64,000 nt of DNA from contig NZ_JACLAF010000005.1 of NCBI RefSeq assembly GCF_015355625.1, positions 186,001-250,000 on the forward strand, read 5' to 3'. The stretch is from Tamlana sp. I1. Lineage in GTDB: Bacteria; Bacteroidota; Bacteroidia; Flavobacteriales; Flavobacteriaceae. This document shows positions 2,900-7,308 of this stretch, one piece after another. The notes under the pieces are model-generated. The model was not told the DNA's origin, searched no databases, and worked only from the letters and a program-made list of their open reading frames with translations. Position 1 is the stretch's first letter, and each line of letters begins with the position of its first letter. A program made the position numbers and the translations under genes.

Positions 2900-3005
2900 A
2901 ATTAAAATTATTTATTCAAAAATAAATGAATATCTAAAGTAATGGAAGTTTTACTGTAAAATCTTTAAAACTTTTAATAAAAGCGTAAAAAATAAAATAT
3001 TGTGT

Positions 3006-3035
3006 TTTGATTTCTCGAAATAATAATTACTTTAG
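3006..3035 (+). promoter_or_regulatory. Probable promoter of the aromatic amino-acid operon
   Basis: TTTG (3006-3009), an 18-nt spacer and TACTTTAG (3028-3035) match the Bacteroidota promoter with one mismatch in the -7 element. Transcription would start near 3039-3041, only about 5-7 nt before the leader-peptide ATG, so the leader would be translated from a very short 5' UTR. Inference from consensus only. Confidence 0.55.
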
Positions 3036-3045
3036 CGCCGTAATT

Positions 3046-3123
3046 ATGACAACAACAGTATATTATACATATTTTAACAACTATTTCTTTTTTAGCAAAA
3101 GAAACGAGGCGTTGTATGTATAA
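3046..3123 (+). CDS. Tyr/Phe-rich leader peptide of the pheA-tyrA operon (25 aa)
   Basis: A 25-codon frame, starting MTTTVYYTYFNNYFFF and ending ALYV-stop, contains five Tyr and four Phe, i.e. nine aromatic residues in 25, with Y6-Y7, Y9-F10 and Y13-F16 clustered. It begins just after a promoter match, ends 25 nt before a perfect 8-bp hairpin with a T run, and precedes genes that make exactly these two amino acids. That is the layout of a classical translational attenuator: scarcity of charged tRNA-Tyr or tRNA-Phe stalls the ribosome on the clusters. The peptide itself probably has no other role. It is too short for routine gene calling. Confidence 0.85.
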   Translation: MTTTVYYTYFNNYFFFSKRNEALYV

Positions 3124-3155
3124 TTTATAAATATAAATTAATGATATGAGTCTCG
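3105..3155 (+). promoter_or_regulatory. Possible antiterminator pairing within the leader
   Basis: CGAGGC (3105-3110, leader codons 20-22) can pair over 6 bp, with one G-U, with GTCTCG (3150-3155), which is inside the first arm of the terminator. A ribosome stalled on the Phe codons at 3085-3093 would leave 3105-3110 mostly free and allow this pairing; one that reaches the stop at 3121 would cover it and release the terminator. An AT-rich inverted repeat (3121-3129 with 3132-3140) sits between. The pairing was found by eye and its energy was not computed. Confidence 0.5.
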
Positions 3156-3177
3156 ATGAAAATCGAGACTTTTTTTT
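3149..3177 (+). terminator. Intrinsic terminator of the aromatic attenuator
   Basis: Perfect 8-bp inverted repeat AGTCTCGA (3149-3156) / TCGAGACT (3163-3170) with a 6-nt loop, followed at once by seven T. It lies between the leader peptide and pheA, so it would end transcription before the structural genes unless prevented. Confidence 0.85.
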
Positions 3178-3234
3178 GTTTAAGCGTTACAAAAATAAAT
3201 GCTACGGCATTAGAACTTAATAAAAGTTGAAAAT

Positions 3235-4062
3235 TTGATTAAAACAGTAGCCATACAAGGAGTAAAAGGGTCTTTTCATCATATTGTTGCACAACAATTT
3301 TTTGAAAACCCTGTGGATTCTATCGAGTGTATGACATTCGACAGAGTGGTGGATTCTTTAATGACCAAAGAATGCGATGCAGGTATTATGGCTTTAGAAA
3401 ACTCAATTGCGGGGTCTATAATTCCTAATTATGCCTTAATTGATAAATATGGTTTACATATTGTAGGCGAACATTATTTAGATATTCAGCATAATTTAAT
3501 GGCTTTACCAAACCAAACGATTGAAGATATTAAGGAAGTGTATTCGCATCCAATGGCTTTATTACAGTGTAAAAAGTTTTTTAGACAATATCCTCATATT
3601 AAACTGGTTGAAGATAAAGATACGGCCGAGGTGGCACAGCGTATCAGCGAAAATCAACTAAAAGGGATTGGCGCCATTGCGAGTGTAACGGCTGCCGAAA
3701 TTTTTAATTTAGACATTCTGGCGCACAGCATTCAAACCATAAAACATAACGAAACCCGTTTTGTTATTGTTAAGCGTAAAAATTCGGTGTTTCCAGAAAA
3801 TGAAATCAATAAAGCTTCAGTAAAATTTGAAGCAAACCATAAACGCGGAAGTCTAGCTGCTATTTTAAATGTGATGAGCGATTGTAGGCTGAATTTAACA
3901 AAAATTCAATCTTTACCCATTGTGGAAACACCTTGGAAATATGCCTTTTTTGTTGATGTTACTTTTGAAAGTTACAACGATTTCAAAAAAGCAAAAACCA
4001 TCATTGAAATTATGGGCGATGCTTTTAAAGTGTTAGGCGAATATAAAAATGCGAAGTTATGA
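3235..4062 (+). CDS. pheA: Prephenate dehydratase
   Basis: Converts prephenate to phenylpyruvate, the committed step to phenylalanine. The 275 residues hold a PDT domain with ENSIAG (55-60) and the catalytic TRF motif (174-176), then an ACT regulatory domain from about residue 192. In the ACT domain the usual Phe-binding motifs GALV and ESRP appear as GSLA (206-209) and QSLP (225-228), so feedback binding may differ from the textbook enzyme. The start is TTG at 3235; the first in-frame ATG is 32 codons later and would cut into the domain. It is a stand-alone dehydratase with no chorismate mutase domain, which here is fused to DAHP synthase. The stop overlaps the next gene by 4 nt (ATGA). Confidence 0.92.
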   Translation: MIKTVAIQGVKGSFHHIVAQQFFENPVDSIECMTFDRVVDSLMTKECDAGIMALENSIAGSIIPNYALIDKYGLHIVGEHYLDIQHNLMALPNQTIEDIKEVYSHPMALLQCKKFFRQYPHIKLVEDKDTAEVAQRISENQLKGIGAIASVTAAEIFNLDILAHSIQTIKHNETRFVIVKRKNSVFPENEINKASVKFEANHKRGSLAAILNVMSDCRLNLTKIQSLPIVETPWKYAFFVDVTFESYNDFKKAKTIIEIMGDAFKVLGEYKNAKL

Positions 4063-5204
4063 TTGAGGTAGCGAATCGATTACAGACGGTTGAAGAATAC
4101 TACTTTTCAAAAAAATTAAGAGAAGTAGGAGGGCTTATTGCAAGCGGAAAACCTATTATAAGTTTAGGGATTGGAAGTCCAGATATGCAGCCGCCAACTG
4201 CGGTGCTAGAAGCAATATCGGAGAGTTTTACAAACCCAAACGCACACAAATACCAAAGCTACCAAGGTTTGCCTGAGCTTAGAGAAGCGGTTTCTGGGTT
4301 TTATAACGAACATTTTTCGGTAAATCTAGATCCAGCTTCAGAAATTCTGCCTTTAATGGGGAGCAAGGAAGGGATTATGCACATTTCGATGGCTTATTTA
4401 AATGAAGGCGACGAAGTTTTAATTCCAAATCCAGGTTATCCAACCTACCAATCGGTTACCAATTTGGTTGGTGCAAAAGGCGTGTTGTATAATTTGGATG
4501 CCGCTAATAATTGGCAACCAGATTTTGAAGCTTTAGAAAAATTAGATTTAAGTAAAGTAAAGCTTATGTGGGTTAATTATCCGCATATGCCAACGGGAGC
4601 ACAGCCTTCAGAATCGTTGTTTAAAGATTTAGTCGATTTTGCAACCCGTCATAATATTTTAATTGTAAACGATAATCCGTACAGTTTTATATTAAACGAT
4701 GCGCCAAAAAGTTTATTAAGTGTTCCTGGTGCTAAAGCGGTTTGTTTGGAGCTTAATTCGCTAAGCAAAACCTTTAATATGGCAGGCTGGCGCGTAGGTA
4801 TGGTTGTTGGTTCGGCGGAACATATTAATAACATTTTAAAAGTGAAAAGCAATATGGATTCGGGTATGTTTTACGGCATACAAAAGGGTGCTATTGAAGC
4901 TTTAAAGTGTTCAAATTCATGGTATTCAGAATTAAACAAGGTGTACGAAGAGCGCCGAAAACTAGTGTGGAAACTAGCCGATGCCTTGAATTGTACTTAC
5001 GATAAAAATGCCACCGGATTATTCATTTGGGCGAAGTTGCCAGAAGGTTTAACTTCGGAAGCTTTTATCGATGAGGTTTTGTATGAGAAACATATTTTTA
5101 TCACTCCAGGAACCGTTTTCGGAACCCAAGGAGAAGGCTATATTAGGTTTTCGCTATGTGCAACAAATGAAGCCATAGAAGAATGTATAGCGCGAGTAAA
5201 ATAA
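4059..5204 (+). CDS. Class I/II PLP aminotransferase, probably aromatic
   Basis: A fold-type I aminotransferase of 381 residues. SLSKTFNMAGWR (234-245) carries the Schiff-base Lys237; NDNPYS (204-209) and the Arg in YIRFS near the C-terminus fit PLP and carboxylate binding. It overlaps pheA by 4 nt and precedes tyrA, so transamination of phenylpyruvate and 4-hydroxyphenylpyruvate is the likely job. Sequence alone does not exclude an aspartate or LL-diaminopimelate aminotransferase specificity, since these enzymes look alike. Confidence 0.85.
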   Translation: MIEVANRLQTVEEYYFSKKLREVGGLIASGKPIISLGIGSPDMQPPTAVLEAISESFTNPNAHKYQSYQGLPELREAVSGFYNEHFSVNLDPASEILPLMGSKEGIMHISMAYLNEGDEVLIPNPGYPTYQSVTNLVGAKGVLYNLDAANNWQPDFEALEKLDLSKVKLMWVNYPHMPTGAQPSESLFKDLVDFATRHNILIVNDNPYSFILNDAPKSLLSVPGAKAVCLELNSLSKTFNMAGWRVGMVVGSAEHINNILKVKSNMDSGMFYGIQKGAIEALKCSNSWYSELNKVYEERRKLVWKLADALNCTYDKNATGLFIWAKLPEGLTSEAFIDEVLYEKHIFITPGTVFGTQGEGYIRFSLCATNEAIEECIARVK

Positions 5205-5315
5205 GTTTACAGTCGCAGTTACAGTTTGTAGTTGCTGTAAATTATAAAAAGATTAAAAACAGATAACTCTTAGTCCCGAGAAAGAGTTCCCTTCAGGGGT
5301 TATGGGGCAGTTAGG
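5205..5315 (+). repeat. Repeat-like spacer between the aminotransferase and tyrA
   Basis: The 111-nt gap holds an inverted repeat TTTACAG (5206-5212) / CTGTAAA (5235-5241) and then a stretch containing CTTAGTCCC and AGGGGTTATGGGGC that runs right up to the tyrA ATG. The second part resembles the paired elements at 28975-29060 and 29167-29252. It looks like a degenerate interspersed element inserted in an operon whose other junctions are tight. Not a clear terminator. Confidence 0.4.
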
Positions 5316-6167
5316 ATGAAAAATATATATGCAATAGGTGTTGGTTTAATAGGCGGAAGTCTTGCTAAGGATATTAAAAAGTATAATCCAGATGCGGTTA
5401 TTCACGGTATTAGTAGAAAAGATGAAACCTTAAACAAAGCACTAGAGCTTAATATAATTGATAAAAAAGCAACTTTAGACGATTTGGAATTTGCCGATTT
5501 GGTTATTGTGTCTATTCCAGTAGATGCTACGGTAAAGTTGTTGCCAACCATTTTAGATAAAATATCGGATAATGGTTTGGTAGTCGATGCGGGTTCAACA
5601 AAAGTTGATATTTGTAAGGCTGTTGAAAATCATCCGAAGCGAAGAAATTTTCTTGCCATGCACCCTATTGCAGGAACGGAACATTCGGGGCCAACAGCAG
5701 CGATTGAAGGCTTGTTTATAGGGAAAACAAATATTGTTTGCGAGGTAGAAAAAACCACGTTTAAGCTTCAAGAGAAAGCCTTGAAATTGTTTTCAGATAT
5801 TGGGATGCGCATGCGTTACATGAATCCGGAAGCACATGATAAACACATCGCTTATGTGTCACATTTATCGCATATTAGCTCGTTTATGCTGGGTAAAACA
5901 GTGATTGAAAAAGAAAAAAACGAACGCGATATTTTCGATATGGCGGGTAGTGGATTTGCTTCTACCGTACGTTTGGCAAAAAGTTCACCAGAAATGTGGA
6001 CACCCATTTTTAAGCAGAATAAAACCAATGTTATCGAAACATTAGAAGAGTATATTAACAATCTCACACATTTTAAAACGCTGATGCAAAATGATGATTT
6101 TGATGCGATTTTTAGTGAGATGGAAAGTACCAATTATATAAAAGATATTTTAAAAGGAATTAGTTAA
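5316..6167 (+). CDS. tyrA: Prephenate dehydrogenase
   Basis: Oxidatively decarboxylates prephenate to 4-hydroxyphenylpyruvate for tyrosine, using NAD(P). The 283 residues begin with a Rossmann motif GVGLIGGS (8-15) and contain MHPIAGTEHSG (115-125), the conserved catalytic-His region of TyrA, followed by the helical dimerisation domain (HDKHIAYVSHLSH). There is no chorismate mutase or ACT domain, so regulation probably falls on transcription and on the DAHP synthase. It is third in the pheA-aminotransferase-tyrA-aroF operon, with only 10 nt to the next start. Confidence 0.92.
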   Translation: MKNIYAIGVGLIGGSLAKDIKKYNPDAVIHGISRKDETLNKALELNIIDKKATLDDLEFADLVIVSIPVDATVKLLPTILDKISDNGLVVDAGSTKVDICKAVENHPKRRNFLAMHPIAGTEHSGPTAAIEGLFIGKTNIVCEVEKTTFKLQEKALKLFSDIGMRMRYMNPEAHDKHIAYVSHLSHISSFMLGKTVIEKEKNERDIFDMAGSGFASTVRLAKSSPEMWTPIFKQNKTNVIETLEEYINNLTHFKTLMQNDDFDAIFSEMESTNYIKDILKGIS

Positions 6168-6177
6168 GAGTGAAATT

Positions 6178-7260
6178 ATGGAAAACAACAAAGAAATGAG
6201 AGCCTGGTTAGATGATTTAAATTTAGATCATCCATTGGTAATTGCAGGACCGTGTAGTGCAGAAACTGAAGAACAAGTTTTAAAAATAGCACATGAGCTA
6301 AAAGATACAGATGTAACTTATTTTAGAGCAGGAATCTGGAAACCAAGAACCCGTCCAGGGATGTTTGAAGGTGTAGGCGCTTTAGGTTTAAAATGGTTAC
6401 AAAAAGTTAAAGCTGAAACAGGTATGAAAATCTGTACGGAAGTTGCCAACGCAGCTCACGTAAAATTAGCTTTAGAGCACGATGTCGATTTATTATGGAT
6501 TGGTGCGCGTTCTACAGTAAGCCCATTTATCATGCAAGAAATTGCAGATGCGCTTGAAGGGACCGATAAACCGGTTTTAATTAAAAATCCTGTAAACCCA
6601 GATTTAGCTTTATGGTTAGGTGGTATTGAAAGAATTTATGCTGCTGGTGTAAAAAATATTGGAGCGATTCACAGAGGATTTTCAACTTACGAAAAAACCA
6701 AATACAGAAACAATCCAGAATGGCAATTGGCAATCGAATTTCAAAACAAATTCCCAGATATTCCATTAATTAACGATCCTTCTCACATTACAGGGAAAAG
6801 AGATATGATTTTTGATGTATCTCAAGCGGCATTAGATTTGAATTTTGATGGTTTAATGATTGAAACACATTACGATCCTGAAAATGCATGGAGTGATGCG
6901 GCACAGCAAGTAACCCCTTCAACTTTAGTTCAAATTATGAAAGATTTGAAAATTAAAAAGGAAACTAATGCTGAAGCAGATTACAATAATGCTTTAGATA
7001 CTTTAAGAGCGCAAATAGACGTAGTTGATAATCAAATTATTGAATTATTAGGAAAACGTATGAAAGCTGCCGATGGTATTGGACAATTGAAAAAAGATAA
7101 AAACGTTGCTGTACTTCAATCGAAACGTTGGAACGAAATTTTAGGAAAAATGGTTCTTGAAGGTGAGCAATATGGTTTAAGTGAAGAATTTATTTTAAAG
7201 ATGTTTAAAGCGATTCACCAAGAGTCTATTAATCATCAAGAAAAAATTATTAACGGATAA
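6178..7260 (+). CDS. aroF: Bifunctional DAHP synthase / chorismate mutase type II
   Basis: The N-terminal 255 residues are a KDO8P-synthase-like DAHP synthase that joins phosphoenolpyruvate and erythrose 4-phosphate, with GPCSAE (24-29), KPRTRP (55-60), IGARS (108-112) and DPSHITG (200-206). From about residue 270 an AroQ-type chorismate mutase follows (LRAQIDVVDNQIIELLGKR, 276-294). The fusion thus supplies both the first step of the shikimate pathway and the prephenate used by the two enzymes upstream. In such fusions the mutase domain often helps feedback control of the synthase. It is last in the operon and is followed by a strong terminator. Confidence 0.93.
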   Translation: MENNKEMRAWLDDLNLDHPLVIAGPCSAETEEQVLKIAHELKDTDVTYFRAGIWKPRTRPGMFEGVGALGLKWLQKVKAETGMKICTEVANAAHVKLALEHDVDLLWIGARSTVSPFIMQEIADALEGTDKPVLIKNPVNPDLALWLGGIERIYAAGVKNIGAIHRGFSTYEKTKYRNNPEWQLAIEFQNKFPDIPLINDPSHITGKRDMIFDVSQAALDLNFDGLMIETHYDPENAWSDAAQQVTPSTLVQIMKDLKIKKETNAEADYNNALDTLRAQIDVVDNQIIELLGKRMKAADGIGQLKKDKNVAVLQSKRWNEILGKMVLEGEQYGLSEEFILKMFKAIHQESINHQEKIING

Positions 7261-7280
7261 TTTTTCGTTATTATATTTTA

Positions 7281-7308
7281 AAAAGCTCCCTATTCGGGAG
7301 CTTTTTTT
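7281..7308 (+). terminator. Intrinsic terminator of the aromatic operon
   Basis: AAAAGCTCCC (7281-7290) and GGGAGCTTTT (7296-7305) form a 10-bp stem around a 5-nt loop and run into a T tract, 21 nt after the aroF stop codon. Confidence 0.93.

Follow-up and report, generated by a model that had tools for sequence, protein, structure and literature searches.

A probable ribosome-mediated transcription attenuator for phenylalanine and tyrosine upstream of pheA in Tamlana sp. I1 and other Flavobacteriaceae

The DNA in front of pheA in Tamlana sp. I1 most likely contains a real and conserved transcription attenuator for phenylalanine and tyrosine, which is of a classical kind and whose pheA element is already in print for a relative. 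Judged from the leader, the terminator, the conserved pairing, the spacing and the choice of codons as they can be read in the DNA, it is in all likelihood a ribosome-mediated attenuator that ties the output of the pheA operon to the charging of the Phe- and Tyr-tRNAs. Leader attenuation of a pheA-tyrA operon had been suggested in a sequence-only reading of this DNA, and it is now supported by a conserved spacing, by compensatory changes and by a codon content that fits the gene. The wording "translational attenuation" used there should be replaced by ribosome-mediated transcription attenuation. In the following, the window is the whole analysed stretch of 64000 bases, which comes from a genome of 4.04 Mb in 32 contigs.

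The pheA operon and its leader region

The gene order pheA, aminotransferase, tyrA and DAHP synthase/chorismate mutase, as originally claimed, is borne out by profile matches, and the operon ends at a terminator-like hairpin:

3235 to 4062, plus strand: pheA, prephenate dehydratase, TTG start (PF00800, E 1.2e-57)
4059 to 5204, plus strand: class I/II aminotransferase, 4-nt overlap with pheA (PF00155, E 2.4e-59)
5316 to 6167, plus strand: tyrA, prephenate dehydrogenase (NF006307, 373.6 bits, cut-off 295)
6178 to 7260, plus strand: DAHP synthase/chorismate mutase (PF00793, E 1.5e-39; PF01817, E 6.2e-23)
7280 to 7306, plus strand: terminator-like hairpin at the operon end

The prephenate dehydratase call is that of Pfam PF00800, the best NCBIfam model staying below its cut-off (197.3 versus 219 bits). 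Among the matches listed, the six best named relatives of this pheA belong to Tamlana or Algibacter and are 87-89% identical. The gap between the aminotransferase gene and tyrA is 111 nt long in the window (5205-5315) and 2 nt in the relative L002. The gene located 5' of the attenuator (2003-2899) has the opposite strand direction. On the plus strand, the stretch from 3000 to 3240 holds, in this order, TTTTG, TACTTTAG, the leader ORF, an AT-rich spacer with a small hairpin, the terminator and pheA. The single parts, the paired ones as predicted, are:

3005 to 3009, plus strand: TTTTG, candidate -33 promoter element, a conserved column block in an 80-sequence alignment
3028 to 3035, plus strand: TACTTTAG, candidate -7 element with 5/6 of TAnnTTTG, box position conserved
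3046 to 3123, plus strand: leader peptide ORF MTTTVYYTYFNNYFFFSKRNEALYV, stop TAA at 3121-3123, control codons 6-16
3058 to 3078, plus strand: protector helix arm 1, pairing with 3111-3128
3105 to 3110, plus strand: antiterminator 5' half, CGAGGC, within leader codons 20-22
3111 to 3128, plus strand: protector helix arm 2
3122 to 3139, plus strand: small AT hairpin, AATTTAT (3122-3128) with ATAAATT (3133-3139)
3148 to 3177, plus strand: intrinsic terminator, stem 3148-3171, T-run 3170-3177, with GTCTCG (3150-3155) being also the antiterminator 3' half

Concerning the promoter, we take TTTTG to have the form of a -33 element. In 39 of 79 close loci the -7 box ends 10 nt upstream of the ATG. As statistical evidence the box was rejected, since 5/6 matches to the consensus TAnnTTTG (PMC9723704) are common in shuffles, and what favours it is solely the conservation of its position. 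Transcription would then begin around 3040, leaving some 6 nt in front of the leader ATG. Such a 5' UTR would be unusual, because only 5.5% of the mRNAs are reported as leaderless in F. psychrophilum (PMC9723704) and leaders of more than 10 nt are given for 87% of the predicted transcripts in F. johnsoniae (PMC6847099).

The leader and its conservation in relatives

The leader peptide had been described as having 25 codons, nine of them aromatic, which is correct (Y6, Y7, Y9, F10, Y13, F14, F15, F16 and Y24). A putative leader ORF rich in codons for the product of the operon is therewith found just 5' of the first gene. In the 250 nt upstream of pheA, a leader with 8/12 aromatic codons plus a terminator arose in 0 of 2000 dinucleotide shuffles, and among 1650 dinucleotide shuffles of close and family sequences 28 had a 7/12 leader, none of them also with a terminator.

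For the counts, a leader was accepted at 7 aromatic of 12 codons. The close set comprised the best 80 of 560 relatives plus the window's own locus. The further family set comprised 84 loci, 80 of them chosen down the match list plus G177, G144, G184 and G292; they come almost all from different genera, and the least similar pheA genes lie mostly outside this set. At class level, 36 of the 37 non-family matches listed were used, G316 being left out as its match starts at residue 48. The 29 loci L082-L110 overlap the close set and were left out of the counts, and two of the 84 further loci (L111, L112) are copies of close loci. As the sets were picked by similarity, the counts are not a random survey. 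The check for relatives that keep pheA without leader or hairpin, which had been proposed along with the sequence-only reading, brought no refutation in the family: the leader is present in 80/81 close and 83/84 further loci, and leader plus terminator in 80/81 and 82/84. The single close miss is L076, whose contig breaks off within 128 nt of pheA, with the hairpin nevertheless visible, and in the further locus lacking the leader by the count, L132, the 3' part of the leader and the terminator are visible, displaced from pheA. In this locus a 110-bp repeat, present in 3.8 copies (417 bp, 95-511), separates the attenuator from pheA. Outside the family (n = 36), the leader was found in 19 class loci and leader plus terminator in 14; 17 had no leader at the 7/12 cut-off and 5 more had no terminator by the scan.

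The codons themselves are conserved as aromatic ones. When the 159 leaders are lined up so that the final codon of the aromatic cluster is position 0, all of them have aromatic codons at positions -3 to 0 (at position 0 by construction), and across these leaders TTT/TTC, TAT/TAC and Phe/Tyr are exchanged with T or C as the third base. Frame 0 is 77% aromatic versus 20% and 30% in the other two frames. Up to the end of the cluster, each of the 159 leaders has one or more Tyr and three or more Phe. The suggestion that the same leader could sense both Tyr and Phe is supported as a reading; for many relatives it is probably too narrow, as their leaders probably read all three aromatic amino acids: exactly one Trp codon is present in 102/159 leaders, none in 57/159. 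The window leader is without Trp and is two codons shorter where many relatives show Trp-Phe, so that Trp sensing, if it exists, would be absent in the window.

It is also conceivable that only Phe, or slow translation in general, is sensed and that the Tyr codons are incidental, as TAT and TTT are one base apart and the small hairpin takes U-rich RNA. The codons nearest the antiterminator are indeed mostly Phe (152/159 at position 0), and in the predicted folds a ribosome stalled anywhere up to codon 17 leads to antitermination. Against this stand Tyr at position -3 in 141 of 159 leaders (Phe in the other 18), the presence of both amino acids in every leader, the other two reading frames, which are not rich in aromatic codons, and Tyr-rich leaders that precede phenylalanine hydroxylase in three relatives. 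Sensing of Phe only is therefore unlikely, although it is the alternative that survives best.

Terminator and antiterminator pairing

The perfect 8-bp terminator stem seen earlier is present, with GTCTCGAT at 3150-3157, the loop GAAA and ATCGAGAC at 3162-3169, and weaker pairs extend this core to 3148-3171. The T-run at 3170-3177 holds eight T and not seven, as had been counted. An intrinsic terminator is thus located between the leader and the first gene, and the region 3038-3180 folds at z = -3.97. The pairings were followed in an alignment, A1, of 113 of the 120 loci with the terminator arm GTCTCG, from which L042 and L052 were omitted as near copies and L174, L178, L185, L188 and L189 as too diverged; L065 was begun at an internal GTG, and L001 is entered by its window coordinates. 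In A1 the terminator has 99.6% of its cells paired.

The 6-bp antiterminator noticed in the sequence-only reading exists as CGAGGC (3105-3110) with GTCTCG (3150-3155), including one G-U pair, but in the window alone it is not beyond chance. Its score is reached by 232 of 5000 mononucleotide shuffles, and by 20 of 5000 also at +12 to +15; significance from the window alone was consequently rejected, and the support for the pairing comes from the relatives. There, antiterminator and inner hairpin have 93.4% of the cells paired compared to 19-42% in slid versions. The inner hairpin is the small AT hairpin, whose two parts have 89.8 and 86.9% of cells paired; its predicted position is inside the antiterminator loop, and it competes with protector arm 2. 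Among the loci with GTCTCG (n = 120) the partner region has CGAG in 105 and CGGG in 5, among those with GTCCCG (n = 28) it has CGGG in 22 and CGAG in none, and 11 of 159 loci have another terminator arm. Hence, between lineages the terminator arm and its partner change jointly (CGAG/GTCTCG versus CGGG/GTCCCG), which means that an antiterminator excluding the terminator is conserved with compensation between lineages. Within the main lineage the helix varies on one side only, and no pair has a double change.

The position of this pairing relative to the control codons is conserved as well. Counted from base 1 of the last aromatic codon, the antiterminator starts after 12-15 nt in 78/79 close, 62/80 further and 8/14 class loci, compared to about 8% of mononucleotide shuffles (7.5% close, 8.5% further); a spacing of 9-15 nt is found in 77/80 further loci versus 14.8% in shuffles. 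These counts are without L076 (contig end), L132 (leader cut by the region end), L147 (no terminator by the scan) and the identical cores L005, L111 and L112. A ribosome stalled at a codon covers about 12 nt downstream (nucleotide 1 of the A site plus 12). A ribosome on the last aromatic codon would therefore end just short of the antiterminator, and the spacing in 78/79 close and 62/80 further loci fits such a stalled ribosome. The stop codon of the close set is located between 9 nt before and 25 nt after the antiterminator start. In 7/79 close and 6/80 further loci the leader ends before the antiterminator, so that masking by a ribosome at the stop codon would differ in those loci.

The C-terminal part SKRNEALYV is conserved in the window lineage well past the control codons, as would be expected if the leader peptide itself acted in trans, like the trp leader peptide of Sinorhizobium as described in PMC7298713. 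However, this part overlaps the antiterminator and arm 2, differs between lineages with compensating changes and is absent from seven close leaders that stop earlier. Since the RNA pairing accounts for its conservation, an action of the peptide in trans is very improbable.

Protector helix, folding with a ribosome and proposed mechanism

The protector helix has 88.3% of its cells paired in A1, with 41-62% in slid versions. In 0 of 500 shuffles was a value as high on any of five measures, whereby related sequences can exceed shuffles also without structure. Its 15 pairs with a double change are to be seen against 8-13 in slid versions and are hence less telling.

In the masked folding only the RNA 3' of the ribosome was folded, its edge being assumed 12 nt past the A site. 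In the window, a stall at codons 1-17 results in a predicted probability of the antiterminator of at least 0.93, and from codon 18 to the stop it is 0. The mean of 79 close loci is 0.99 at aromatic stalls and 0.00 at the stop codon. The zero is in large part a product of the set-up, in which nothing but the RNA past the ribosome is folded. For free RNA truncated before the terminator 3' arm, with no ribosome, the probability is 0.87 in the window and 0.66 on average in the 79 close loci. As the antiterminator is thus favoured also without a ribosome, equilibrium folding does not show the protector enforcing termination when there is no translation, an outcome that the order of co-transcriptional folding could alter.

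From these parts we infer the transcription start, the stalling, the coupling of ribosome and polymerase as well as the direction and size of the effect. The polymerase would start about 6 nt before the leader ATG, and a ribosome would translate the leader behind it. With ample charged tRNA the ribosome would reach codons 18-26 and cover CGAGGC (3105-3110), leaving GTCTCG free for the terminator, and transcription would end at the T-run. When charged tRNA for Tyr or Phe is scarce, the ribosome would wait within codons 6-16 with its edge just before CGAGGC, which would stay free to pair with the emerging GTCTCG, and the polymerase would read into pheA. In an untranslated leader, the partner strand may be kept occupied by the protector helix (3058-3078 with 3111-3128).

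Related leaders before other genes

With a covariance model built from the 113 sequences, 107 family genomes out of 149 give a match at E <= 0.001, and many of these genomes supplied training sequences. Of 13 places fetched from these matches, 9 have pheA-type aromatic leaders, 2 have leaders of other composition and 2 (L242 and L250) have no aromatic leader. One strong match (L240 625-753, 4.3e-16) is located where a contig ends; its genome has two matches and 6% contamination, which may point to a second strain.

In the own genome, the leader MKTILNNTWWWCFRN (WWW) and a terminator stand before trpE (L233 2892-3015; best NCBIfam model trpE_most with 415 bits, below the cut-off of 518). This leader is a match of the Rfam family Bacteroid-trp RF01692 (57.2 bits versus 49), and a simple pairing search gave only a weak 5-bp pairing at +4 for it. 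Before hisG (L231) of the same genome the leader is MTFIHTHHHFQICSQAK (HTHHH), with a 9-bp antiterminator at +15 from the last His codon. No clear leader was found at the own-genome chorismate-binding loci L232 and L234, and none by eye before the own ilvD. The two homoserine dehydrogenase loci yielded no leader, their frames extending beyond the flank covered. By Pfam, prephenate dehydratase is absent from two genomes of the family. In one of them MKNLNNTYYYYPILTRRIGQ (YYYY) precedes phenylalanine hydroxylase, and in the other (L239 665-783) MTNNNTWWSNSKFYLKR (WW..FY) and a terminator precede a lone DAHP synthase/chorismate mutase. Two further genomes have Tyr-rich leaders before phenylalanine hydroxylase, namely VINTNIYYYYYPLLNFRIG, which begins at GTG, and MKTNRIYTIYMYTFYHRWRAR. 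The codons of all these leaders match the downstream gene, as attenuation predicts.

Tyr leaders before phenylalanine hydroxylase are not general. Among the loci of the short type, 3/7 have a Tyr-rich leader plus terminator (L255, which is the place of L238, L253 and L258), and L252, L254 and L257 have no Tyr leader by eye; L256, whose frame has two stops, is outside these verdicts. Among 12 long-type loci that were inspected (L259-L267, L270-L272), none has a Tyr-rich leader followed by a terminator. For the three phenylalanine hydroxylase leaders the antiterminator pairing begins at +18, +19 and +11, and for the DAHP synthase leader at +35, counted from its last Trp; a spacing of 12-15 nt is thus absent from most of the retargeted leaders.

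Tentatively, and with a chance that we put somewhat below even, a single flavobacterial attenuator design has been retargeted by codon swaps. The nearly fixed spacing of the pheA leaders would then imply tight coupling of transcription and translation in bacteria without Shine-Dalgarno sequences, the leaders starting very near the 5' end of the mRNA. This would cover the pheA operons with Phe and Tyr (and Trp), the Tyr-rich hydroxylase leaders and the WW..FY leader of the lone DAHP synthase/chorismate mutase. Its probability is lowered by the retargeted leaders without the 12-15 nt spacing, and also because model matches, the basis for common descent, exist for only two of the retargeted leaders. 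To our knowledge, Bacteroidota lack Shine-Dalgarno sequences.

Comparison with known systems

Rfam 15 has 0 matches at gathering score in the 64000-base window, T-boxes and riboswitches included, and assignment of the element to an Rfam family was rejected, as none was usable at gathering score or at E <= 10. The element reaches 14.8 bits with Phe_leader RF01859, for which the gathering score is 55, and Bacteroid-trp RF01692 has no match in the window and does not include the pheA element. A T-box that binds tRNA, or a metabolite riboswitch in which the ORF is accidental, would likewise present itself as a structured 5' region with a terminator before an amino-acid operon. However, no family of this sort is matched at gathering score anywhere in the window, the sole weak related match is the one to Phe_leader, and the aromatic codons stay in the same reading frame while synonymous codons replace each other, which makes this possibility highly improbable. 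That the element is simply an intergenic terminator next to an ORF arisen by chance is still less credible, to the point of being negligible, for although AT-rich DNA readily yields Phe and Tyr codons, leader and terminator came together in 0/1650 shuffles, the layout is conserved across genera, and the reversed gene at 2003-2899 leaves no same-strand gene that would need termination there.

Ribosome-mediated transcription attenuation, in contrast, has well-known precedents. Leaders of the pheL/trpL type have runs of codons for the regulated amino acid and mutually exclusive protector, antiterminator and terminator pairings, and the position of the ribosome decides between them. The element of the window shares with the enterobacterial pheL and trpL attenuators (RF01859 and the Trp leaders) the codon-run leader and, as predicted features, the exclusive pairings and the ribosome-position logic. 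It differs from them as it mixes Phe and Tyr, often with one Trp in relatives, as one leader here precedes an operon for Phe and Tyr together with the first committed step, and by its very short presumed 5' UTR. Bacteroid-trp RF01692, listed in a table of a 2010 survey (PMC2864571), is also a leader attenuator of Bacteroidetes, but one with Trp codons and trp genes. A comparative attenuation survey by Lopatovskaya and colleagues from 2010 may cover Bacteroidetes.

An experimental case in Flavobacteriaceae was not found in searches of open-licence papers, in agreement with what the sequence-only reading had stated; still, a pheA element is already in print. The main text of the F. johnsoniae ribosome profiling study (PMC6847099) has no mention of a leader peptide, of attenuation or of pheA. 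For Flavobacterium psychrophilum, PMC9723704 (2021) reports structured 5' regions, among them one of pheA that was found in other genera of the Flavobacteriaceae, and strong clues for leader-peptide attenuation 5' of amino-acid operons. That element likewise occurs in other genera and has no Rfam hit; as gene and family agree, it would be the same element as the one described here. Section 19 of PMC9723704 describes neither its leader sequence and codons nor an alternative pairing or a spacing. In another genus, leader-peptide-like sORFs in long 5' UTRs are described for Bacteroides thetaiotaomicron (PMC7366714).

Implications

For an element that is listed but left unexplained in section 19 of PMC9723704, a leader sequence, a codon set, a pairing scheme and a spacing are now given, and the alignment with its covariance model could be the seed of a new Rfam family. 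The proposed mechanism depends on a ribosome that follows the polymerase closely, and for this reason the conserved spacing of 12-15 nt would make the coupling of transcription and translation in Bacteroidota directly testable.
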